Source: Pseudomonas sp. TH15
GTDB taxonomy: Bacteria; Pseudomonadota; Gammaproteobacteria; Pseudomonadales; Pseudomonadaceae
Length of the DNA stretch: 64,000 bases
Direction: 5' to 3'
Assembly (NCBI RefSeq): GCF_016651105.1
Contig: NZ_JAEKEL010000001.1
Location: forward strand, 2,966,001 to 3,030,000
This document shows, one piece after another, positions 17,093 through 43,091 of this stretch (positions are counted from its first letter, which is position 1; each line of letters opens with the position of its first letter). The translations under genes and the position numbers were made by a program. The notes beneath the pieces are model-generated. The model was not told where the DNA came from. It made no database searches and worked only from the letters and a program-made list of their open reading frames with translations.

Positions 17093-18160
17093 TTACTTCA
17101 TCTCTACGATGACTTCTTCCTGCCACTTCTGAGGAAGGGCCTTGGAGGTCTTCTCCCATGCGTCGGCGTCTTTGATCGGCGTTACTTTTTTGTACTGCTC
17201 GTTCGGCAGCAGCTTGGCTTTCACGTCTTCCGGCAGGGTCAGGTGCTCGGCACGGATTGGACGGGCGTTGCCGCGCGCCAGGTTGGTCTGGCCGGCGTCG
17301 CTGAAGATGTACTCGCGGGTCAGCTTGGCGGCGTTCGGGTGCTTGGCGTATTTGTTGATGATGGTGGTGTAGCCGGAGATCACCGAGCCATCGGACGGGA
17401 TCAGCACCACGTAGTCATCCGGGTTGGTCATCTTGGCCTTGTAGCTCAGGCCGTTGAAGTCCCAGACCACGCCCACTTCCACTTCACCTTTCTCCATGGT
17501 GGCGATGGTCGGGTTAGCCAGCGACAGACGACCTTGCTTGGCGATCTCGGCAAACATCAGCAATGCAGGCTGGATGTTCTTTTCGTCGCCGCCGTTGGCC
17601 AATGCTGCGGCCAGGACGCCGTTGGCGGCTTGAGCGGCGGTGCTCACGTCGCCGATGGAGACTTTGTATTTGCCGGTTTTCAGGTCAGCCCAGCTTTTCG
17701 GGGCTTCGGAACCGTGCAGCAGTTTTTTGTTCACAATGAAAGCGATGGTGCCGGTGTAGGCCAGGGCCCAGTTGCCGTCCTTGTCTTTCGCCCAGTCCGG
17801 GACTTGCGCCCAGGTGGTTGGTTTGTACGGTTGGGTCACGCCTTGTTTGACGGCGATCGGGCCGAAAGCGGCGCCCACGTCGCCGATGTCGGCACTGGCG
17901 TTGTCTTTTTCAGCGGCGAACTTGGCCACTTCCTGGGCCGAGCTCATGTCGGTGTCGATGTGTTTCAGGCCATAGGTCTTGGCCAGGTCTTCCCAGGTGC
18001 CTTTCCAGTTGGCCCAGTCATCGGGCATGCCGACGCTGTTGACGGCGCCTTCCGCTTTCGCAGCGGCTTCCAAAGTTTTCAAATCCGTATCAGCAGCCAT
18101 GGCGGCGGTGCACATGGCAATGGTCGAGCCTAACAGTGATGCCAGGAAAAGCTGTTTCAT
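17093..18160 (-). CDS. ABC importer periplasmic substrate-binding protein
   Basis: A 355-residue extracellular solute-binding protein with a signal peptide (MKQLFLASLLGSTIAMCTAA, cut near AMAAD). The fold is the type II periplasmic binding protein of the iron/polyamine/phosphonate class (YTGTIAFIVNKKLLHG, SWADLKTGKYKVSIGD). It is the first gene of the operon and has a good ribosome binding site (GGAGCTT). The ligand is not known; the phosphodiesterase and HAD phosphatase in the operon point to a phosphorus-containing ligand. Confidence 0.9.
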   Translation of the reverse strand: MKQLFLASLLGSTIAMCTAAMAADTDLKTLEAAAKAEGAVNSVGMPDDWANWKGTWEDLAKTYGLKHIDTDMSSAQEVAKFAAEKDNASADIGDVGAAFGPIAVKQGVTQPYKPTTWAQVPDWAKDKDGNWALAYTGTIAFIVNKKLLHGSEAPKSWADLKTGKYKVSIGDVSTAAQAANGVLAAALANGGDEKNIQPALLMFAEIAKQGRLSLANPTIATMEKGEVEVGVVWDFNGLSYKAKMTNPDDYVVLIPSDGSVISGYTTIINKYAKHPNAAKLTREYIFSDAGQTNLARGNARPIRAEHLTLPEDVKAKLLPNEQYKKVTPIKDADAWEKTSKALPQKWQEEVIVEMK

Positions 18161-18506: not shown

Positions 18507-18520
18507 GATAGGTAACGTTG

Positions 18521-19234
18521 ATGCGTGATGAGGCAACAAAAGCAGTGACAGCCATTGGCCAGGTCCTTCAGGAGCAGCTCGACCACGGCTTGCTGGCGGC
18601 TGGCAGCAAGCTGCCGGCCGAGCGCAAGCTCAGTGAGTTGTTCGGGACCACACGGATTACCGTGCGTGAGGCGTTGTTACAGTTGGAAGCGCAGGGCCAG
18701 ATTTATCGCGAGGAGCGCCGCGGCTGGTTCGTCTCGCCGCCGCGCCTGGCCTACAACTTGATGCAGCGCAGCCACTTTCACGCGATGGTCAGTGCCCAGG
18801 GGCGAGTGCCGTCCACCGAGGTGATTTCAGCGCGTTTGCAGCCGGCGTCGGCGGCGGTGTGTGCCTGGTTGCAGTTGCCGGCGTTGTCGAGCGTGATTCA
18901 GATTTGCCGTGCGCGGCGCATCGACGGGCGTCTGGTGTTGTATGTGGAGCACTATTTGAATCCACAGTTTTTCCCGGGGATTCTCGAGTTTGATTTGAAT
19001 CAGTCGATTACCGAGCTGTACGCGCGGCACTACGATTTGCACTACGGGCGGGTGCGGTTCGAGATCGTGCCGACGTCGTTGTCGGTGGATGCGGCGGCGG
19101 CGCTAAGGGTGTCGGTGGGGAGTCCGGGGTTGCGGATTGCCCGGGTCAATTATGATCAGCATGAGCGGCTGATCGACTGTGATCTGGAGTTTTGGCGCCA
19201 TGATGCGATTCATGTGGGTGTCGATGTGGTTTGA
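18521..19234 (+). CDS. GntR-family regulator with UTRA domain
   Basis: A 237-residue transcription factor of the HutC subfamily. Residues 5-75 form the winged helix-turn-helix (KLPAERKLSELFGTTRITVR, then EALLQLEAQGQI). Residues 90-235 form the UTRA effector-binding domain (ending GLRIARVNYDQHERLIDCDL). It is divergent from the ABC operon and two matching palindromes lie between them, so it most likely represses or controls this importer in response to its substrate. The ATG at 18521 is used rather than the TTG directly before it. Confidence 0.9.
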   Translation: MRDEATKAVTAIGQVLQEQLDHGLLAAGSKLPAERKLSELFGTTRITVREALLQLEAQGQIYREERRGWFVSPPRLAYNLMQRSHFHAMVSAQGRVPSTEVISARLQPASAAVCAWLQLPALSSVIQICRARRIDGRLVLYVEHYLNPQFFPGILEFDLNQSITELYARHYDLHYGRVRFEIVPTSLSVDAAAALRVSVGSPGLRIARVNYDQHERLIDCDLEFWRHDAIHVGVDVV

Positions 19235-33190: not shown

Positions 33191-34549
33191 TCAGTGCGTG
33201 TGGGCGTGGCAGTCGTTGATGGCCGCGCGTTCTCTACCACCGAGAATGTTGAACAGCAGGTTCAACGACAGGGCGCTCAGCGTGGCCATGGCGATGCCGC
33301 TGTGGGTGATCGGGCTCATCCACAGTGGCAGGTGCGCGAAGAACTCCGGACGGACCACCGGGATCAGGCCCATGCCGATGCTCACTGCCACCAGCAGCTG
33401 GTTGCGGCGGTCACCGATGTCGGCTTCTTGCAGGATCTTGATGCCCGTGGCCGCAACCATGCCGAACATCGCAATGGCCGCGCCGCCCAGTACCGCCGGC
33501 GGAATCGACGCCACCAGGAACGCCGCTTTCGGCAGCAGGCTCAACACCACCAGCAAACCGCCGGCGACGATGGTCACCGAGCGGCAACGCACGCCGGTCA
33601 TCTGCACCAGGCCGATGTTCTGGGCGAAGGAGGAATGGGTGAACGTGTTGAAGAAACCGGCGAAAAACGAGGCGCCGGCATCACACAGCAAGCCGCGACG
33701 CAGCATCCGTGGGCAGACTTCCTGACCGGTGATCTTGCCCAGGGCGAGGAACATCCCGGTGGACTCGACGAAGATAATCACCACCACCAGGCACATCGAC
33801 AGGATCGGTGCGAGTTCAAATTTCGGCATGCCGAAGTGCAGCGGCGTGACGATCTGCACCCATGGCGCTTGAGCCATGCCGCTGAGATCGACCATGCCGA
33901 TCACGCCACAGAGCGCGTAGCCCAGGCACATGCCGATCAGCACGGAAATGTTGACCCAGAAACCGCGCATAAAGCGGTGGATCAATAGAATGGTCGCCAG
34001 CACCAGCGCGGCGATGGCCAGGTAAATCGGTGAACCGAATTGAGTCGCGCCAGCACCGCCGCCGGCCCAGTTCACGGCCACGGGGAACAGCGACAAACCG
34101 ATCGAGGTGATGACGGTGCCGGTCACCAGCGGCGGGAAGAAGCGTACGACTTTGGACATGAACGGCGCGATGATCATGCCGAAGAATCCGGCGGCGATAG
34201 TCGCGCCGAAGATCCCTTGCAGGCCGATACCGGGCATGCCGGCCATGGCGACCATGCTGCCGACGGCGGCGAAACTGGCGCCCATCATCACCGGCATGCG
34301 GATGCCCATCGGGCCGATCCCAAGCGATTGCACGACGGTGGCAATGCCGGCGACCAGCAGGTCGGCGTTGATCAAAAAGGCGATTTCTTCACGACTCAGG
34401 CCAGCGGCCTGTCCGATGATCAGCGGTACCGCGATGGCGCCGCCGTACATCAGCAGTACGTGTTGCAGACCGACCAGGATCAGTTGCAAAAGAGGCAAAC
34501 GCTGAATCGCGGGTGCGTCGGGGATGCGCGCTTCGGATAGCTCGGACAT
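33191..34549 (-). CDS. NCS2-family xanthine/urate permease
   Basis: A 452-residue inner-membrane symporter of the nucleobase-cation symporter-2 family, with about 14 helices. The family motif around the substrate site appears as FVESTGMFLALG, followed by GVVSFFAG-like GASFFAGFFNTF and QNIGLVQMTGVRCR, the Q-N-x-G-x-x-x-x-T signature. The QH of LVGLQHVLLMYGG near the N-terminus is also typical. Gene context (puuD, alc, allA, puuE) favours urate or xanthine as substrate. The ATG at 34549 follows GAGGTG. It lies downstream of puuD with a REP pair between. Confidence 0.9.
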   Translation of the reverse strand: MSELSEARIPDAPAIQRLPLLQLILVGLQHVLLMYGGAIAVPLIIGQAAGLSREEIAFLINADLLVAGIATVVQSLGIGPMGIRMPVMMGASFAAVGSMVAMAGMPGIGLQGIFGATIAAGFFGMIIAPFMSKVVRFFPPLVTGTVITSIGLSLFPVAVNWAGGGAGATQFGSPIYLAIAALVLATILLIHRFMRGFWVNISVLIGMCLGYALCGVIGMVDLSGMAQAPWVQIVTPLHFGMPKFELAPILSMCLVVVIIFVESTGMFLALGKITGQEVCPRMLRRGLLCDAGASFFAGFFNTFTHSSFAQNIGLVQMTGVRCRSVTIVAGGLLVVLSLLPKAAFLVASIPPAVLGGAAIAMFGMVAATGIKILQEADIGDRRNQLLVAVSIGMGLIPVVRPEFFAHLPLWMSPITHSGIAMATLSALSLNLLFNILGGRERAAINDCHAHTH

Positions 34550-34598
34550 GCAACACCTCGGATCTTTTTTATTCTTGTGATTTTTTTCAGGCGAATCT

Positions 34599-34702
34599 GT
34601 GGCGAGGGAGCTTGCTCCCGCTGGGGCGCGAAGCGGCCCCGCTTTTCTCCAATAAGAAAGGGGACTGCTGCGCAGTCCAGCGGGAGCAAGCTCCCTCGCC
34701 AC
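34599..34702. repeat. REP inverted pair (GTGGCGAGGGAGC type)
   Basis: Inverted copies of GTGGCGAGGGAGCTTGCTCC between puuD and the permease gene on the same strand, so it may modulate read-through or mRNA decay. Confidence 0.85.
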
Positions 34703-34734: not shown

Positions 34735-36036
34735 TTAGTTGACTTGAGCTCCCTGATTGATCCAGGCACCAATCAGGTCACGTTCCTGCTGGGTCATCTG
34801 TGTGATGTTGCCCAGTGGCATGATCTGGCTGGCGACGGCTTGCGCCTGAATCCGCGGGGCCAATTGCTGGATTTGTTGCGGGGTATCGAACATCACGCCG
34901 GCCGGTGCTGCACTGAACAGCGGGCTGGTCGGTTTGGCCGAATGGCACACGGCGCAGCGTTCCTGAATCACGCTGTGCACCTTGTCGAACGCCGGGCCCT
35001 GGCTCGACGCTTGCGCCGGTGCGGCGGCAGGCGCAGCAGGCTTGGCCGCTTCAGGTTTGGCACCACCACCGAGGGCAGTTTCCGGCAACGGTTGGTACTC
35101 AATGGCGGCAGGAGCCTTCGCGACTTCAGGCGCAGTAGGCATCGGCGACGGGCCAGTCACGTAAGCCAGGCTGATCATGCCGACGGCTGCAACCGGCAGG
35201 GTCCAGGCAAACTTGTGGCTGTTGTGACGGGTGTTGAAGTAGTGACGCACCAACACCGCCAGCACCGCGATCCCGGCCAGGATCAGCCAGTTGTATTGGC
35301 TGCCGTAGGTGCTCGGAAAGTGGTTGCTGATCATGATGAACAGCACGGGCAAGGTGAAGTAGTTGTTGTGACGCGAACGCAGCAAACCTTTGGCCGGCAG
35401 CGCCGGATCGGGTGTGCGGTTCTCGGCAATCGCCGCGACCAACGCACGTTGCGCCGGCATGATGATGCGGAACACGTTACCGACCATGATGGTGCCGATG
35501 ATCGCGCCAACGTGCAGGTACGCACCACGACCGCTGAACACTTTGCTGAAGCCGTAGGCCGCGCCGATGATCAGCACGAACAAAATTCCGCCGAGCAGGG
35601 CAGGGCGTTTGCCCAGGGCCGAGTCGCAGAGGAAGGAGTAGATGAACCAGCCGATGAACAGCGAGCCGATACCGATGGCCACGCCTTCAGGACCGCTCAG
35701 GCTGCTGCCCGGAGCCAGCAAGTACAGCGTCGGGTTGGAGTAGAACACCACGCACAGCAGCGCGATCCCCGACATCCAGGTGAAGTAGGCTTCCCATTTG
35801 AACCAGTGCAGGTTGTCCGGCATGGTCGGTGGAGCCAATTTGTATTTTTCCAGGTGATAGATACCGCCGCCGTGGATCGCCCACAGATCGCCCGCCAGAC
35901 CGCTTTTCGGGTTGACCCGATTGAGGTTGTTTTCCAGCCAGACGAAATAGAACGACGCACCGATCCAGGCCACGCCAGTAATCATGTGAACCCAGCGCAC
36001 GCTAAGGTTCAGCCATTCCAACAGATGTGCTTCCAC
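34735..36036 (-). CDS. puuD: membrane urate hydroxylase PuuD with cytochrome c domain
   Basis: A 433-residue membrane protein that oxidises urate to 5-hydroxyisourate and passes electrons to the respiratory chain, replacing soluble uricase. The N-terminal 300 residues hold about eight helices with conserved His residues (WVHMITGVAWIGASF, AIHGGGIYHLEKYK, RHNNYFTLPVLFIM). A Pro/Ala-rich linker follows, then a C-terminal cytochrome c domain with CAVCH near residue 360 and the distal Met in SQIMPLGNIT. The start is GTG at 36036. It lies in the urate operon between allA and the permease gene. Confidence 0.93.
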   Translation of the reverse strand: MEAHLLEWLNLSVRWVHMITGVAWIGASFYFVWLENNLNRVNPKSGLAGDLWAIHGGGIYHLEKYKLAPPTMPDNLHWFKWEAYFTWMSGIALLCVVFYSNPTLYLLAPGSSLSGPEGVAIGIGSLFIGWFIYSFLCDSALGKRPALLGGILFVLIIGAAYGFSKVFSGRGAYLHVGAIIGTIMVGNVFRIIMPAQRALVAAIAENRTPDPALPAKGLLRSRHNNYFTLPVLFIMISNHFPSTYGSQYNWLILAGIAVLAVLVRHYFNTRHNSHKFAWTLPVAAVGMISLAYVTGPSPMPTAPEVAKAPAAIEYQPLPETALGGGAKPEAAKPAAPAAAPAQASSQGPAFDKVHSVIQERCAVCHSAKPTSPLFSAAPAGVMFDTPQQIQQLAPRIQAQAVASQIMPLGNITQMTQQERDLIGAWINQGAQVN

Positions 36037-36086: not shown

Positions 36087-36590
36087 TTATTGGTGGGGGG
36101 CAAGGATCAAACGCTCATCCTCTTTGAAAAAATGCTCATCGCAGTTATTGCCTGTGCCACTGCGATCAACCACCAGGAAGTCATCCCGCTTTTCGATCGT
36201 CAGCACCGGATGGTGCCAAACGCCGCGATGGTAATTAATGCCCTGCCTGCCGTTGGTGACGAAGGCGCGGACCAAGCCTGATACAGGTTCATCGCCAAGT
36301 GGCGCGACCACGATCAGAAAGGGGTTGCCGAGCAGCGGGATGAAAGCCTGGCTGCCCAGCGGGTGACGCTCCAGCATGCTGACGGTCAGCGGCATGTCCT
36401 GCGCGTCGGCGCGGAAGATGCTGATGATCGCGTTATCCTCTGGCGTGGCGGTTTGCACCGTCGCCAGTTTATGGAAGCGCATGGTCGAACCGTTGTTGAT
36501 CATGAAGTGATCGCTACCGTCGGTTTCAATCACGTCACCGAAAGGGGCGAAGGCTTCTTTGGTCAGCGGTTCAATCGTCAATGTGCGCAT
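36087..36590 (-). CDS. allA: ureidoglycolate lyase
   Basis: A 167-residue cupin-like enzyme that splits ureidoglycolate into glyoxylate and urea, the last step of this urate pathway. Family features are MRTLTIEPLTKEAFAPFGDV at the N-terminus, LERHPLGSQAFIPL in the middle, and INYHRGVWHHPVLT with the conserved His residues. It is separated from alc by a REP pair and from puuD by 50 bp, on the same strand. Confidence 0.94.
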   Translation of the reverse strand: MRTLTIEPLTKEAFAPFGDVIETDGSDHFMINNGSTMRFHKLATVQTATPEDNAIISIFRADAQDMPLTVSMLERHPLGSQAFIPLLGNPFLIVVAPLGDEPVSGLVRAFVTNGRQGINYHRGVWHHPVLTIEKRDDFLVVDRSGTGNNCDEHFFKEDERLILAPHQ

Positions 36591-36741: not shown

Positions 36742-37737
36742 TTATTTAGCGACCTTGCCCAGTACGCGCAGGCGGCTCACACCACCATCCGGGAACACGT
36801 TCAGGCGGATGTGGGTGATCGGGCCCAGCGCCTTGATCTGCTCGGCGAAGGTGTGTTCAGCGTGCATTTCCAGTTTCTGCGCTGGCAGCAGTTCGCGCCA
36901 GAACAACGATTGGGTTTCGATCTGGCTGTCAGTACCGCCCTTCACGAAAGCGCCCTGGATCGAGCACGTGTCCGGGTAGTTGCCCTTGAAGTGCAGGGTG
37001 TCGACGATGACTTTCTCGACTTCGCCCGCATGACCCAGCGCGACGATCACCCAGTCATTGCCTGGCGTGCGACGACGTGCGGTTTCCCAGCCGTCGCCCA
37101 TGTTGATGCCACGGCCCGGGTTGAGGATGTTGCTCATGCGGCCGAAGTGTTCATCGGAGCAGGCGAGGGCGCGGCCACCGTTGAGGGCTGCGGCCAGGTC
37201 GATCTGCTCGTTGTCGCCAACGGCCGACCAGTCGCGGTGCGGAACGCCGTACACACGCAGACGCGCTACGCCACCATCCGGGTAGATGTTGAAGCGCAGG
37301 TGGCTGAATGCCTGGTCGTTGTTGATTTCGTGGAAGTGATGGCTGTTGCCTTGCAGCTCGACAGCCGACAGCACTTCAACCCACTGGGTGTTTTCAGTCG
37401 GTTCGCCTTCTGCCAGGAAGCAGGCTTCCAGGGAGGCCGACGGCGGGAAGTTGCCGGTGAAGAATGAAGTATCGATGTCCACGCCTTTGATCGAACCTGG
37501 TACGCCCAGGCGGATCACGGCACTGTCATAGCCTTCGAAGCGCTTGCGGCGCGATTCCCAGCCGTCCATCCACTTGCCGTTGTCATCGAACACGCCTTCT
37601 TTCCACACAGCCGGGGTCGGCTGGAACAGGCGGTTGGCATCAGCGAACCAGTCATCGGTGACCGAGATGATTTTGGTGCCCAGACGGGCATCGGCCAGGT
37701 TGACGAACTTCTCGAAAGGTACGGCGTAAGCTTTCAT
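36742..37737 (-). CDS. alc: allantoicase
   Basis: A 331-residue hydrolase that converts allantoate to ureidoglycolate and urea. It has the two tandem allantoicase domains expected (residues 15-165 and 190-328); each contains a similar block ([20 protein letters not shown] and [20 protein letters not shown]) and ends in a repeat of FPDGG/YPDGG-V-x-RLRV. The length is normal. Substrate is supplied by PuuE, and the product goes to AllA downstream. Confidence 0.95.
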
Positions 37738-37825: not shown

Positions 37826-38350
37826 CTAGAGAGTCAGTAATCGGAACAACGCTATCTTGTTGATCTCCGCCAGCGCGCATTTGAATTCGGTGTCTGCCGA
37901 GTTGTGAATGCGCGTTTCGAACGCCGCGAGGATCTGATGCCGGTTGCTGCCTTTTACCGCCATGATGAAGGGAAACTTGAACTTGGCCTTGTAGGCGTCA
38001 TTCAGCTCGGTGAAGCGTTGAAACTCATCGCTCGAGCATTGGTGAATACCGGCGCCAGCCTGTTCATTAGTGCTGGCTTCGGTCAGTTCGCCCTGGACGG
38101 CAGCTTTGCCGGCCAGGTCGGGGTGAGCGACGACCAGCTCAAGCTGGCTTTGGTGATCAGCGCTCAACAAAATGTCGCTCATGCGCTGGTGCAGGGTTTC
38201 GATCTCGTCGATCTCGTCGATCGCAGCGTCCTGGCCCAGGTCGAAAGCCTTTTCGGCCACCCATGGCGAATGTTCGTAGATGTCGGCGAAGGCGGCGACA
38301 AACGCATCGCGGCTCAGGGTCGACGGTTTCAGTGTCTGGAAGGTGCTCAT
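37826..38350 (-). CDS. uraD: OHCU decarboxylase
   Basis: A 174-residue enzyme decarboxylating 2-oxo-4-hydroxy-4-carboxy-5-ureidoimidazoline to S-allantoin. The family signature HPDLAGKAA (catalytic His) is at residues 74-82, followed by LTEASTNEQAGAGI and later FPFIMAVKGSNRHQIL. Its ATG overlaps the puuE stop (ATGA), so the two are coupled. This and UraH complete the conversion started by PuuD. Confidence 0.95.
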   Translation of the reverse strand: MSTFQTLKPSTLSRDAFVAAFADIYEHSPWVAEKAFDLGQDAAIDEIDEIETLHQRMSDILLSADHQSQLELVVAHPDLAGKAAVQGELTEASTNEQAGAGIHQCSSDEFQRFTELNDAYKAKFKFPFIMAVKGSNRHQILAAFETRIHNSADTEFKCALAEINKIALFRLLTL

Positions 38351-39273
38351 TTGGCAGCCCCTTGGTACGGGTGGGTTTCATGCCAATGGCGAGCGATGTC
38401 GACGCGACGGCTGAACCATACCTGTTCATGACTTTTAGCGTATTCGATAAAACGCTTGAGCGAGGCCAGACGCGCCGGACGGCCGATCAGTCGGCAGTGC
38501 AGGCCGATCGACAGCATCTTCGGTGCTTCGGCGCCTTCAGCGTAAAGCACATCGAATGCATCTTTGAGGTATTCGAAGAAATCGTCGCCCTTGTTGAAAC
38601 CCTGGACCTGGGTGAAACGCATGTCGTTGGTGTCCAGCGTGTACGGGATCACCAAGTGCGGCTTGCCGGTCGGGTTGTTCGGTTCCCAGTAGGGCAGGTC
38701 GTCGTCGTAGGTGTCGCAGTCGTAGAGGAAACCGCCTTCTTCCATCACCAGCCGACGGGTGTTCGGGCCGGTGCGGCCGGTGTACCAGCCCAGTGGGCGT
38801 TCGCCTGTGAGTTCGGTGAGGATGCGGATCGCTTCGAGCATGTGCTCGCGTTCCTGCGCTTCGTCCATGTACTGATAGTCGATCCAGCGATAGCCGTGGC
38901 TGCAGATTTCGTGGCCGGCATCGACCATCGCGCGGATCACGTCCGGGTGACGCTGGGCGGCCATCGCTACGGCGAAGATGGTCAGCGGAATGTCGAATTC
39001 CTTGAACAGCTTCAGCACCCGCCAGACACCCGCGCGGCTGCCATACTCGTAAAGGGATTCCATGCTCATGTTGCGCGCGCCTTGCAGCGGCTGCGCCGAG
39101 ACCATTTCCGAGAGGAAGGCTTCGGACTCTTTGTCGCCGTGCAGGATATTGCGCTCGCCACCTTCCTCGTAATTGAGTACGAAGGACAAGGCGATGCGGG
39201 CATTGCCCGGCCAGTGTGGGTGCGGAGGGTTACTGCCGTAACCGACCAGGTCGCGTGGGTAGTCAGCGCTCAC
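38347..39273 (-). CDS. puuE: allantoinase PuuE (polysaccharide deacetylase-like)
   Basis: A 308-residue metal-independent allantoinase of the polysaccharide deacetylase fold, hydrolysing allantoin to allantoate. Family blocks include PRDLVGYGSNPPHPHWPG near the start, SFVLNYEEGGERN, AGHEICSHGYRWIDYQ, and GWYTGRTGPNTRRLV. The start is taken as GTG at 39273, which has GGAAG in front and gives the family N-terminus; an ATG-like longer start at 39303 adds 10 unlikely residues. It is the first gene of the minus-strand urate unit. Confidence 0.93.
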   Translation of the reverse strand: MSADYPRDLVGYGSNPPHPHWPGNARIALSFVLNYEEGGERNILHGDKESEAFLSEMVSAQPLQGARNMSMESLYEYGSRAGVWRVLKLFKEFDIPLTIFAVAMAAQRHPDVIRAMVDAGHEICSHGYRWIDYQYMDEAQEREHMLEAIRILTELTGERPLGWYTGRTGPNTRRLVMEEGGFLYDCDTYDDDLPYWEPNNPTGKPHLVIPYTLDTNDMRFTQVQGFNKGDDFFEYLKDAFDVLYAEGAEAPKMLSIGLHCRLIGRPARLASLKRFIEYAKSHEQVWFSRRVDIARHWHETHPYQGAAK

Positions 39274-39344: not shown

Positions 39345-39354
39345 TTGTATACAA
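39345..39354. promoter_or_regulatory. palindromic operator TTGTATACAA
   Basis: A perfect 10-bp palindrome in the 407-bp divergent promoter region between puuE and uraH, 72 bp from the puuE start. The same core occurs at 42376-42387 in front of the NCS2 purine permease. Probably a binding site for a purine-responsive regulator not encoded next to it. Confidence 0.65.
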
Positions 39355-39538
39355 CTTTATATTCACTTTGTAAGCCTGATTTTTTGCATTTTTCATTAAC
39401 TGTCATGAATGGATGCTACTGCAAGAAACCTGCCTGACTGGTCAGCTAATGAATAGGAGGTTCGCTGACTGCATGGTTCGCGGGTAAATCCGCTGCAAAT
39501 TCGCGGATGGCGGGGGAGGGCGTAAAAATGTCGTTTTT

Positions 39539-39550
39539 ATTGTGTACAAT
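39539..39550. promoter_or_regulatory. second palindromic operator ATTGTGTACAAT
   Basis: A near-perfect palindrome of the same type, on the uraH side of the divergent region (about 131 bp before uraH). With the site at 39345 it gives each direction one site. Confidence 0.6.
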
Positions 39551-39680
39551 TTTTTTGAAAAGTGTCTTAATCAGTCGCTCGCCGCAGCTTTTCGTGCTCC
39601 GAAACGGTGCGGTCTCCTTTTCAACTGACTTCGGGAGGCGCGAGGTCTGACTGCTCTACGCAGCCAGGCGCGCAGAATCA

Positions 39681-40034
39681 ATGGGACGTTTGACTACACA
39701 CGTTTTGGACGCTGCACACGGTTGCCCGGGCAGCTCGATCAAGGTCGAGTTGTACCGCGTTGAAGGCTCGCAGCTGGAATTGGTCGCCAGCGCGATTACC
39801 AACAGCGACGGCCGTGTCGATGCACCGCTGCTGCAAGGCGATGACTACCGTTCCGGGGTCTATCAGGTTCAGTTTCATGCGGGCGATTACTACCGCGCCC
39901 GTGGCGTTCAGCTGCCGGAACCCGCGTTCCTGGACGTAGTCGTGCTGCGGTTCGGCATCTCTGCTGAACAGGATCACTACCACGTGCCACTGCTGATTTC
40001 GCCCTACAGCTATTCGACCTACAGAGGAAGCTAG
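39681..40034 (+). CDS. uraH: 5-hydroxyisourate hydrolase (transthyretin-like)
   Basis: A 117-residue enzyme that opens 5-hydroxyisourate to OHCU, the step after PuuD. Transthyretin-related signatures are present: THVLDAAHGCPGSSI (residues 5-19), then FHAGDYY, and the C-terminal YHVPLLISPYSYSTYRGS, whose YRGS end is diagnostic. There is no signal peptide, so it is cytoplasmic. It is divergent from puuE and followed by a strong terminator. Confidence 0.95.
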   Translation: MGRLTTHVLDAAHGCPGSSIKVELYRVEGSQLELVASAITNSDGRVDAPLLQGDDYRSGVYQVQFHAGDYYRARGVQLPEPAFLDVVVLRFGISAEQDHYHVPLLISPYSYSTYRGS

Positions 40035-40076
40035 ACTCCCCCAAGAATCTGCGCAAAAAGCTTCTTTGGTCTTTCG

Positions 40077-40103
40077 CCCGCTCACACTGCGGGCTTTTTT
40101 TTG
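40077..40103 (+). terminator. rho-independent terminator of uraH
   Basis: Stem GCCCGC (40077-40082) with GCGGGC (40090-40095), followed by eight T residues. Confidence 0.92.
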
Positions 40104-40118
40104 CCTTCAGGAAAGTCA

Positions 40119-40197
40119 AAAGATCGCAGCCTTCGGCAGCTCCTACATTTAAATGCGATCCCCTGTAGGAGCTGCCGAAGGCTGCGATCTTTTGATC
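40119..40197. repeat. REP inverted pair (GTAGGAGCTGCC type)
   Basis: AAAAGATCGCAGCCTTCGGC with its inverted copy ending at 40197; between convergent uraH and the LysE-type gene. Confidence 0.85.
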
Positions 40198-40206
40198 TTG
40201 CTTTAC

Positions 40207-40833
40207 TTACCGGCTCAACAACGACGCGGCGCCCGCGCCACCGAACAACGCGGCACTAATCCGGTTAAACCAACTCTGGCCCTTGCCACTGCGCAGATAC
40301 CGCGCCGCGCCATGGGCACCCAGCCCATACGCCAACTTGCACAGCAGATCCAACACCGCCCAGGTTGCAATCATCACCAGCAATTGCGGCAGGAACGGCT
40401 GTTCAGCGCTCAAGAACTGCGGCAGGAAAGCGGCGAAAAACAGGATGTCTTTTGGATTACTTGCGCCCAACACAAACGCGCGTCCGAACAGTGCGCGAAA
40501 GCGTGGCACAGGTGCGGCCTGGGGCACTTCGGCGCCGTGGGACGGTTGACGCGATTGTTGCCAGCTCTTCCAAGCGAGGTAAAACAGGTACAGCGCGCCA
40601 ACGATCTTCAGCGCGCTGAACAGCTGTTCCGACGCCAGCAGCAGGGCGCCCAGACCCAGCGCCGACGCACTGAGCAGACAAATCGAGGCAATCACCCCGC
40701 CGAGAAACGCCGGGTACGAACGGCGCAAACCGTAGTTCAGGCTGTTGCTGATCATCAGCAAAGACAATGGCCCCGGGATCAGGATTACCACCAGCGCGGC
40801 GCCGCTGAACAGCAGCCAGGTTTCCAGACTCAT
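40207..40833 (-). CDS. LysE/RhtB-family amino acid exporter
   Basis: A 208-residue inner-membrane exporter with about six helices. The family block LIPGPLSLLMISNSLNYGLR (residues 18-37) includes the conserved Pro-Gly-Pro; a second mark is FVLGASNPKDILFFAAFLPQFL. The ATG at 40833 is preceded by an excellent AGGAGG. The substrate (amino acid or related metabolite) is not predictable. It is separated from the NCS2 gene by that gene's terminator. Confidence 0.9.
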   Translation of the reverse strand: MSLETWLLFSGAALVVILIPGPLSLLMISNSLNYGLRRSYPAFLGGVIASICLLSASALGLGALLLASEQLFSALKIVGALYLFYLAWKSWQQSRQPSHGAEVPQAAPVPRFRALFGRAFVLGASNPKDILFFAAFLPQFLSAEQPFLPQLLVMIATWAVLDLLCKLAYGLGAHGAARYLRSGKGQSWFNRISAALFGGAGAASLLSR

Positions 40834-40853
40834 CACTTTCCTCCTAATGTGCA

Positions 40854-40877
40854 AAAGCCCCACCCGACGGGGTGAGG
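40854..40877 (-). terminator. rho-independent terminator of the NCS2 permease gene
   Basis: On the minus strand GCCTCACCC pairs with GGGTGGGGC around a 4-nt loop, followed by TTTT. Confidence 0.8.
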
Positions 40878-40897
40878 CTGTTTGAAGCTATGACGGC

Positions 40898-42247
40898 TTA
40901 CAAGAAAATGAACTTGGCGATGAAGATCGCGCAGAGCACCCACAAGCTGGCGGAAATTTCCTTGTACTTACCGGTACCAGCCTTCAGCACCACGTAAGTG
41001 ATAAAGCCCAGTGCGATGCCGTCGGCGACCGAAAAGGTCAGCGGCATCATGATCGCGGTGACGATCGCCGGAATGCTGTCGGTCGCTTCATCCCAGTTGA
41101 TGTGAGCCATACCGCTCATCATCAGCATCGCCACATAAATCAGCGCACCCGCCGTTGCATAAGCCGGAATCATGCCAGCCAGCGGTGCGAAGAACATCGC
41201 GGCAATAAATAGCACACCTACGGTCACTGCGGTAAGACCAGTCCGACCACCAGCGGCTACACCCGCGGCACTTTCTACATAGCTTGTTACTGGAGGGACG
41301 CCGACCATCGCCCCGAATACGCTGGAGGCGCTGTCAGCTTTCATGGCGCGAGAGAGGTTTTCGATCCGGCCATCAGCGTTGACCAGGCCGGCGCGCTGGG
41401 CGACGCCCATTAAGGTACCGGCGGTGTCGAACATGTGCACGAAGAGGAACGCCAACACCACGCTGATCATGCTGACGTTGAACACGCCGGCGATGTTCAT
41501 GGCCATCCAGGTCGGTGCCAGGCTCGGCGGGGCGGACATGATGCCGCCGTAATGCACCAGGCCCAGGCCCCAACCGGCGAGGGTCACGGTGATGATGCTG
41601 ATGAGGATCGCGCCGAAGACTTTGTGGTAGCTGAGCACGGCAATCATCAGGAAGCAGATGGCCGCCAGCAGCGGGCCAGGCTCGCGCAGGGAGCCGAGTT
41701 TGATCAGGGTGGCCGGGCTGGCGACGATGATGCCGGCGGTTTTCAGGCCGATGATCCCTAGAAACAGTCCGACCCCGGCGCCCATGGCGTAGCGCAGGCT
41801 GACCGGAATGCTGTTGAGCAGCCATTCGCGAATCTTGGAAAACGTCAGAATCATGAACAACACACCGGAGACAAACACCGCGCCGAGGGCGGTTTCCCAG
41901 TTGTAGCCCATGGTGCCGACCACGGTGTAGGTGAAGAATGCGTTCAGGCCCATGCCCGGTGCCAGGCCGACCGGCCAGTTGGCGTACAGGCCCATCAACA
42001 GGCAACCCAGTGCCGCAGCGATGCAGGTGGCAACGAACGCCGCGCCGTGGTTGATGCCAGCGTCAGCCATGATGTTCGGGTTGACGAAGATGATGTAGGC
42101 CATCGTGATGAAGGTTGTCAGACCGGCAATCAGCTCGGTCTTCACCGTGGTGCCATGCAAGCTGAGTTTGAAGATGCGCTCCAGCCAGCCATTACGTAAC
42201 GGCGGCGAGAGATCCAGCGACGAAGCTTCGGATTTGCGGCTTTCCAC
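40898..42247 (-). CDS. NCS2 (AzgA-like) adenine/guanine/hypoxanthine permease
   Basis: A 449-residue purine-base proton symporter of the AzgA-like branch of NCS2. Family blocks: TELIAGLTTFITMAYIIFVN at the N-terminus, GPGMGLNAFFTYTVV-like APGMGLNAFFTYTVV, then FLFVHMFDTAGTLMGVAQRA and PVTSYVESAAGVAAGGRTGL. About 12-14 helices. The start is GTG at 42247. It supplies purines that feed the nearby urate pathway, and it shares a palindromic upstream site with the urate cluster. Confidence 0.92.
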   Translation of the reverse strand: MESRKSEASSLDLSPPLRNGWLERIFKLSLHGTTVKTELIAGLTTFITMAYIIFVNPNIMADAGINHGAAFVATCIAAALGCLLMGLYANWPVGLAPGMGLNAFFTYTVVGTMGYNWETALGAVFVSGVLFMILTFSKIREWLLNSIPVSLRYAMGAGVGLFLGIIGLKTAGIIVASPATLIKLGSLREPGPLLAAICFLMIAVLSYHKVFGAILISIITVTLAGWGLGLVHYGGIMSAPPSLAPTWMAMNIAGVFNVSMISVVLAFLFVHMFDTAGTLMGVAQRAGLVNADGRIENLSRAMKADSASSVFGAMVGVPPVTSYVESAAGVAAGGRTGLTAVTVGVLFIAAMFFAPLAGMIPAYATAGALIYVAMLMMSGMAHINWDEATDSIPAIVTAIMMPLTFSVADGIALGFITYVVLKAGTGKYKEISASLWVLCAIFIAKFIFL

Positions 42248-42375
42248 AGCGAGTACTCCTCAAGAGTTTTATTTTTATTTCCAGGGCCGGACCCATGAGG
42301 GTGGCAGCGGCCCTTTGAGGCACTTGCGAATTTGTTGACCGCTTGGTCAGGAACTCGCACGAAGTGGATTATGCT

Positions 42376-42387
42376 TTTGTATACAAA
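42376..42387. promoter_or_regulatory. palindromic operator TTTGTATACAAA
   Basis: A perfect 12-bp palindrome 129 bp upstream of the NCS2 permease start, containing the same TTGTATACAA core as the site in the puuE/uraH promoter. The 315-bp region 42248-42562 otherwise contains only a REP pair. Confidence 0.65.
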
Positions 42388-42458
42388 TAAAGCAAATAAT
42401 GTTTTCGGTTTTGTTTACGAAAGTTCCGTCGATAGGGATATATCGCCTTCGAGGGCCT

Positions 42459-42550
42459 CATCGCTGGCAAGCCAGCTCCCACAGGATTTGAGTGGTTCTG
42501 TACATCTGAGTACACCGCCAACCATTGTGGGAGCTGGCTTGCCAGCGATG
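42459..42550. repeat. REP inverted pair (GTGGGAGCTGGCTTGCC type)
   Basis: Fourth REP class: CATCGCTGGCAAGCCAGCTC at the left and its inverted copy ending GCCAGCGAT at 42550. Confidence 0.85.
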
Positions 42551-42562
42551 GGGCCAGATCAA

Positions 42563-43009
42563 TCAGTCGAGAACTGTCTGACTGTTCCCCAACGCCAGAT
42601 TCACCGCCAACCACCCATTCACCGCCGTCTCCCCAGCCTCGGCAAATACCCGCTCCAGCAACGTCACCTGCTCACGCCGCAGCGATTGCTCAAACCGCGC
42701 GCCATCGTCAGTCAATTCGAGCAGCCGTTTTCGCTTGTCAGTCTCGGACGCCACGCTGTCCACCAAATGCATCTCCACCAACTGACGCAGTGGAATGTTC
42801 AACGCCTGTTTGGTCACGCCGAGCAATGCCAGCAAATCCTTCACACTCAGGTTCGGGTAACGGGCGATGAAAAACACGATGCGCTGATGCACCCGGCTCA
42901 AGCCGCGACGCTCAAGCATCTCGTCAGCCTTGGCCGTGAAAGCCTGGTAGCCGAAGAAAAACGCTTCCATTGCTTGTTGCTGGGTCGTGGGGTTTTTAAG
43001 GTCAAGCAT
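42563..43009 (-). CDS. MarR-family transcriptional regulator
   Basis: A 148-residue winged-helix regulator. The DNA-binding part is NLSVKDLLALLGVTKQALNI, then PLRQLVEMHLVDSVASETDK and RKRLLELTDDG, the MarR wing pattern. The N- and C-terminal helices form the dimer interface. The ATG at 43009 is preferred to a TTG at 43027. It is divergent from the aminotransferase gene with an 82-bp gap and probably controls it. Confidence 0.87.
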   Translation of the reverse strand: MLDLKNPTTQQQAMEAFFFGYQAFTAKADEMLERRGLSRVHQRIVFFIARYPNLSVKDLLALLGVTKQALNIPLRQLVEMHLVDSVASETDKRKRLLELTDDGARFEQSLRREQVTLLERVFAEAGETAVNGWLAVNLALGNSQTVLD

Positions 43010-43091
43010 GTTGACGTATCCGCTCAAGCTGTCGTAATTTCGGTCAACCAGTTTGACTCATTTCCTTCAGGCCCCGCTACCGGTGACCCCC

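Follow-up and report, generated by a model that had tools for sequence, protein, structure and literature searches.

Which protein reads the short palindrome that stands in front of the urate genes and of a purine permease in Pseudomonas sp. TH15? The window analysed here is a stretch of 64 kb (G000:C1:2966001-3030000) of a two-contig Pseudomonas genome. We propose that its three palindromic sites are operators of an orthologue of UgmR, a protein described from Pseudomonas aeruginosa, and that they belong to a dispersed regulon; to this explanation as a whole, including its mechanism, we assign a probability of roughly 0.88. The sites, their positions, conservation and synteny and their co-occurrence with UgmR rest on the present analysis, and repression and release by urate rest on the P. 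aeruginosa literature. Binding in Pseudomonas sp. TH15, the steric mode of action, the new targets and the identity of the motif with the published UgmR motif are predictions from sequence.

Palindromic sites among the urate genes

The palindrome TTGTATACAA occurs in exact form between puuE and uraH (39345-39354, ~70 bp upstream of the puuE start) and again 130 bp before the start of an NCS2 permease gene (42377-42386), as the initial annotation had described. The second site that it had reported on the uraH side is present as well (39540-39549, 131 bp upstream of the uraH start), but to call it near-perfect misses its nature: TTGTGTACAA, with one mismatch, is a fixed variant and not a decayed copy, because the same G is found in nearly all relatives and in all 80 sites located before ugmR (see below). 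Of 54 Pseudomonas genomes, 53 have the puuE-side site in exact form and 50 keep the one on the uraH side, and the reversed pattern has no match at these two places in any of the 54.

All three sites are predicted UgmR-type operators. The one at 39345 would serve a series on the minus strand, puuE-uraD-alc-allA-puuD-pbuX, which begins with puuE (allantoinase, 38347-39273; TIGR03212, 544 bits against a cut-off of 424.6) and continues with uraD (OHCU decarboxylase, 37826-38350; TIGR03164), alc (allantoicase, 36742-37737; TIGR02961), an allA-like ureidoglycolate lyase gene (36087-36590), puuD (membrane urate oxidase, 34735-36036; PF06181 Urate_ox_N, 413.6 bits) and a pbuX-type xanthine/urate permease gene (33191-34702; TIGR03173), whose start codon is uncertain. 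The site at 39540 would serve uraH on the plus strand (hydroxyisourate hydrolase, 39681-40034; TIGR02962), and the one at 42377 the NCS2 purine permease gene on the minus strand (40898-42247; PF00860 Xan_ur_permease), whose product we take to be AzgA-like from what is known of the family. The names of puuE, uraD, alc, uraH and the pbuX-type permease come from NCBIfam models, each above its cut-off, and that of puuD from Pfam; the allA-like gene, an ORF of 167 aa that is kept in the clusters of other genera, is named from its sequence and position.

Chance hardly accounts for these sites: the window holds three matches to the palindrome with at most one mismatch, compared to 0.36 expected, and this number was reached in none of 100 shuffles. 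Genome-wide, a pattern search returned 11 exact copies and only two of the reversed control, a frequency above chance of the kind on which the initial annotation had made its reading depend. A wider pattern, TTGTNNACAA, shows no enrichment across the genome (52 matches versus 57 for its control), so a specific core with an AT or GT centre appears to be needed. A literature search on the letters of the motif returned no relevant-looking paper.

Repeats of a different appearance also occur in this part of the window: inverted GTAGGAGCTGCCGAAGGCTGCGATC-like and TGGGAGCTGGCTTGCCAGCGAT-like copies at 40119-40195 and 42445-42545 resemble the REP elements of Pseudomonas.

A distant GntR-type protein as candidate reader

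The initial annotation held that no regulator lies next to the purine genes and that a distant factor reads the shared operator. The first part is not strictly correct: a MarR-family gene (42563-43027) adjoins the permease gene, here and in one related genome, and its product, or some other local factor, might be supposed to bind the palindrome. We regard this as very improbable, because in other genera the loci with the same sites have ugmR as the neighbour, with no marR homologue found, because no such site precedes marR itself, and because the number of motifs tracks UgmR. The second part, a shared purine-gene operator with a distant reader, is well supported, and the best candidate for the reader is the UgmR orthologue, which is encoded ~85-88 kb from the window sites and has an operator of its own.

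The ugmR gene (L058:8323-9087, equal to C1:3093323-3094087) adjoins guaD-xdhCBA in the source genome and encodes a protein with a GntR winged-helix domain (PF00392, 63.7 bits) and an FCD domain (PF07729, 83.4 bits). A TTGTGTACAA site lies between ugmR and a BenE-family gene, and the same variant is found 100-120 bp (about 106) before ugmR in all 80 named Pseudomonas loci. The gene is very probably the orthologue of PA1520, since each of two PA1520 primer sites (PMC1173109) is present in it with two mismatches, at a span of 237 bp compared to the published 236, and since the synteny in other genera agrees; the remaining two PA1520 primers of that study fit poorly. According to PMC12694930, which cites Xu et al. 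2022 (doi 10.1111/1462-2920.16088), UgmR (PA1520) is a GntR-family repressor in P. aeruginosa that acts by binding upstream of gcl and of the PA1513-PA1518 cluster; uric acid releases it, and allantoin does not. The same paper describes an induction of gcl by allantoin that is seemingly independent of UgmR, which suggests that further factors act at gcl. Both published target groups of P. aeruginosa, gcl and the urate/allantoin genes, bear the motif in our genome.

The distance between regulator and sites is understandable from the gene order in other genera. In most of 18 loci from five genera, a single cluster of the form puuE-[site][site]-uraH-azgA-[site][site]-ugmR-guaD-xdhCBA is found, in which the homologue of our NCS2 permease gene adjoins ugmR; azgA is preceded by a site in most loci of these five other genera of the family, and some of the 18 loci have no site before azgA, uraH or ugmR. 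Judged from this synteny, this lineage has broken up an ancestral cluster, of which the window represents one half, and the break would explain why the regulator is not adjacent.

The presence of the regulator and the number of motifs go together. In 59 genomes of the genus, the exact motif averages 7.7 in the 51 with ugmR and 0.5 in the 8 without (Mann-Whitney p = 4e-6, a value that is too small given that the genomes are related), while the reversed control averages 0.5 and 0.6, respectively. Two genomes without a UgmR orthologue, G050 (L330) and G026 (L331), retain a single TTGTATACAA, that of the puuE side, an observation that speaks against the UgmR reading.

A protein of the same kind could be the reader instead: the GntR/FCD regulator encoded divergently from xdhA, a UgmR paralogue, or a GntR regulator of the PA0120 kind. 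The operators of GntR proteins resemble each other, the xdhA-divergent protein is of the same family and linked to xdhA, and SELEX data to which PMC12694930 refers put a PA0120 site upstream of gcl; relatives moreover encode UgmR paralogues of ~40-51% identity, which might read similar DNA. Nevertheless, we consider this improbable, although somewhat less so than a local factor: the motif stands neither before xdhA nor before the xdhA-divergent regulator, it precedes ugmR in every one of the 80 loci, and no further close homologue of UgmR is encoded in the source genome at E <= 1e-40. The xdhA-divergent gene itself (L058:15656-16315) has counterparts of 64-72% identity in other genera and no TTGTATACAA nearby, and its product is a candidate for a separate regulator of xanthine dehydrogenase.

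Another gene of GntR/HutC type lies within the window (18518-19234), with a score just below the PhnR cut-off and with TTGTTCACAA at 17727. We rejected this PhnR-like gene as a source of the reader, as it is a phosphonate-type regulator and the nearby TTGTTCACAA is of another type.

The organization recalls known systems. In Escherichia coli, AllR, which PMC12694930 cites, likewise governs both the degradation of purines and allantoin and the use of glyoxylate as a single repressor, but it belongs to the IclR family, senses allantoin and glyoxylate, and is a protein unrelated to UgmR. With the UgmR regulon of P. aeruginosa, as far as the available literature describes it, our system shares the GntR repressor and the gcl and urate/allantoin targets. 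In contrast, the regulon proposed here is dispersed, with the regulator at ~85-88 kb, and extends to conserved sites in front of mcpH, azurin, an NCS1 permease gene with a racemase gene, a second xanthine permease gene, an MFS exporter gene and a membrane protein gene.

Promoter overlap and a possible mechanism

In the aligned promoters, the three operators coincide with conserved promoter-like elements. The operator at 39345 overlaps a -10-like TACAAT of the puuE series; the one at 39540 contains a -35-like TGTACA that is followed by CTTAAT at 17 bp, with a conserved TGTCTTAAT downstream of the uraH operator; and the one at 42377 fills the spacer between a -35-like TTTGCT and a -10-like CATAAT of the NCS2 permease gene. 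These assignments rest on conservation and on a hand-made score, the boxes being weak matches hexamer by hexamer, and a consensus promoter scanner returned nothing at the operators. The overlap fits steric repression.

A possible mechanism is as follows. When purines are absent, UgmR, presumably a dimer by family precedent, would occupy the palindromes over -10-like, -35-like or spacer sequences and block RNA polymerase. Urate made by xanthine dehydrogenase would then bind the FCD domain and cause UgmR to leave the DNA, so that uptake, degradation of urate to glyoxylate and assimilation of glyoxylate would be switched on together. Through the operator before its own gene, UgmR may also restrain its own expression. 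A mismatch scan of the L058 stretch gave no motif before xdhA, which fits induction by urate, because urate is the product of xanthine dehydrogenase.

Sites elsewhere in the genome

The initial annotation had suggested a genome scan for the motif near xanthine dehydrogenase and other purine genes. Sites were indeed found at gcl, at genes for an allantoin-type and a xanthine permease and at ugmR; however, xdhA lacks one although xdh adjoins ugmR, and the scan also gave sites that had not been foreseen, at mcpH and azurin. Altogether, the shared operator is confirmed as a real feature, and the initial reading of it is supported. Two copies precede gcl (glyoxylate carboligase, TIGR01504 above cut-off; L056), one precedes an NCS1 permease gene that is followed by an Asp/Glu/hydantoin racemase gene, whose product we would guess to be an allantoin racemase, and one precedes pbuX2, the gene of a second xanthine permease (TIGR03173). 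The sites at gcl, ncs1 and pbuX2 recur in the sampled relatives. The gcl and urate/allantoin targets are already known in P. aeruginosa. The sites described here would give UgmR an operator at base resolution and a conserved list of targets across Pseudomonas; what merits testing is that this list reaches to chemotaxis and to azurin. Outside of Xu et al. 2022, neither mcpH nor azurin came up in the literature as a reported target of UgmR.

The chemoreceptor gene has a predicted UgmR operator ~60 bp before its start, which is exact in 19 of 29 cases and has one mismatch in 6. Its product carries a dCache_1 domain (81.2 bits), and the ligand-binding domain matches the structure of Pseudomonas putida McpH (8bmv) at E 1e-101. 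The purine motif, Y121, R129, W140, F167 and D169 (numbering of PMC11245519), is identical at each of its five positions. McpH of P. putida, which shares this motif, is a purine chemoreceptor (PMC11245519), and purines raise its transcripts according to PMC6363813. In their available parts, these two papers name no regulator of mcpH, whereas here a UgmR-type operator precedes the gene. Judged from this operator, mcpH very probably belongs to the UgmR regulon in this strain, which would explain the reported purine induction and provides a concrete candidate for its regulator.

The azurin site is exact in 38 of 49 genomes with UgmR and in none of 7 without (Fisher p = 1.4e-4, the genomes being related), and lies -93 to -99 from the start codon in most genomes. 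Eight of the 49 have neither an exact nor a well-placed near-exact site. The pattern suggests, less surely than for mcpH, that the azurin gene also belongs to the regulon.

Two further copies stand before genes of less obvious function. The first precedes an MFS exporter gene distantly like NepI, at -49 in six of six close orthologues and in none of the paralogues of 54-63% identity; the second precedes a gene for a membrane protein of ~250 aa (L061:2543-3973; relatives L382-L401) that has no Pfam match, and is found at -84/-85 in the relatives, with 16 of 20 exact and two more with one mismatch. It is conceivable that UgmR runs the purine genes and that the azurin, MFS and membrane-protein sites are inert or belong to a different factor: none of the three is a known purine gene, and several distant genomes lack the azurin site although they encode UgmR. 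The exact sequence and the fixed distance to the start (-93 to -99, -49 and -85), together with the absence of the azurin site where UgmR is absent (0/7), make this separation unlikely, if by no means negligible.

If the UgmR orthologue does control all of these genes, urate could, through this one protein, switch on an entire behaviour: the search for purines, their import and their breakdown may be linked, with mcpH and azurin under the same control as uptake and degradation, and with azurin induced as an electron carrier for the cytochrome-c-type urate oxidase PuuD. This extended proposal is tentative, and we think it somewhat more apt to be wrong than right. The path of electrons from PuuD is left open in the available part of PMC4562309, and azurin, offered as a hypothesis only, would be a testable physiological partner in the oxidation of urate.

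A few other sites were set aside. The copy in L060 (C1:3383312) was judged incidental, since the genes on either side of it seem to converge and a terminator-like hairpin is next to it, and TTGTACACAA at C1:1356610 and TTGTCGACAA at C1:3061956 are unlinked to purine genes. A further site, without a counterpart among the exact copies in the source genome, was observed in three relatives (G057, G015 and G007), in which TTGTATACAA stands directly before a dihydrolipoamide-dehydrogenase-like gene (pyridine nucleotide-disulphide oxidoreductase), at L211:2490, L226:2533 and L235:2500.
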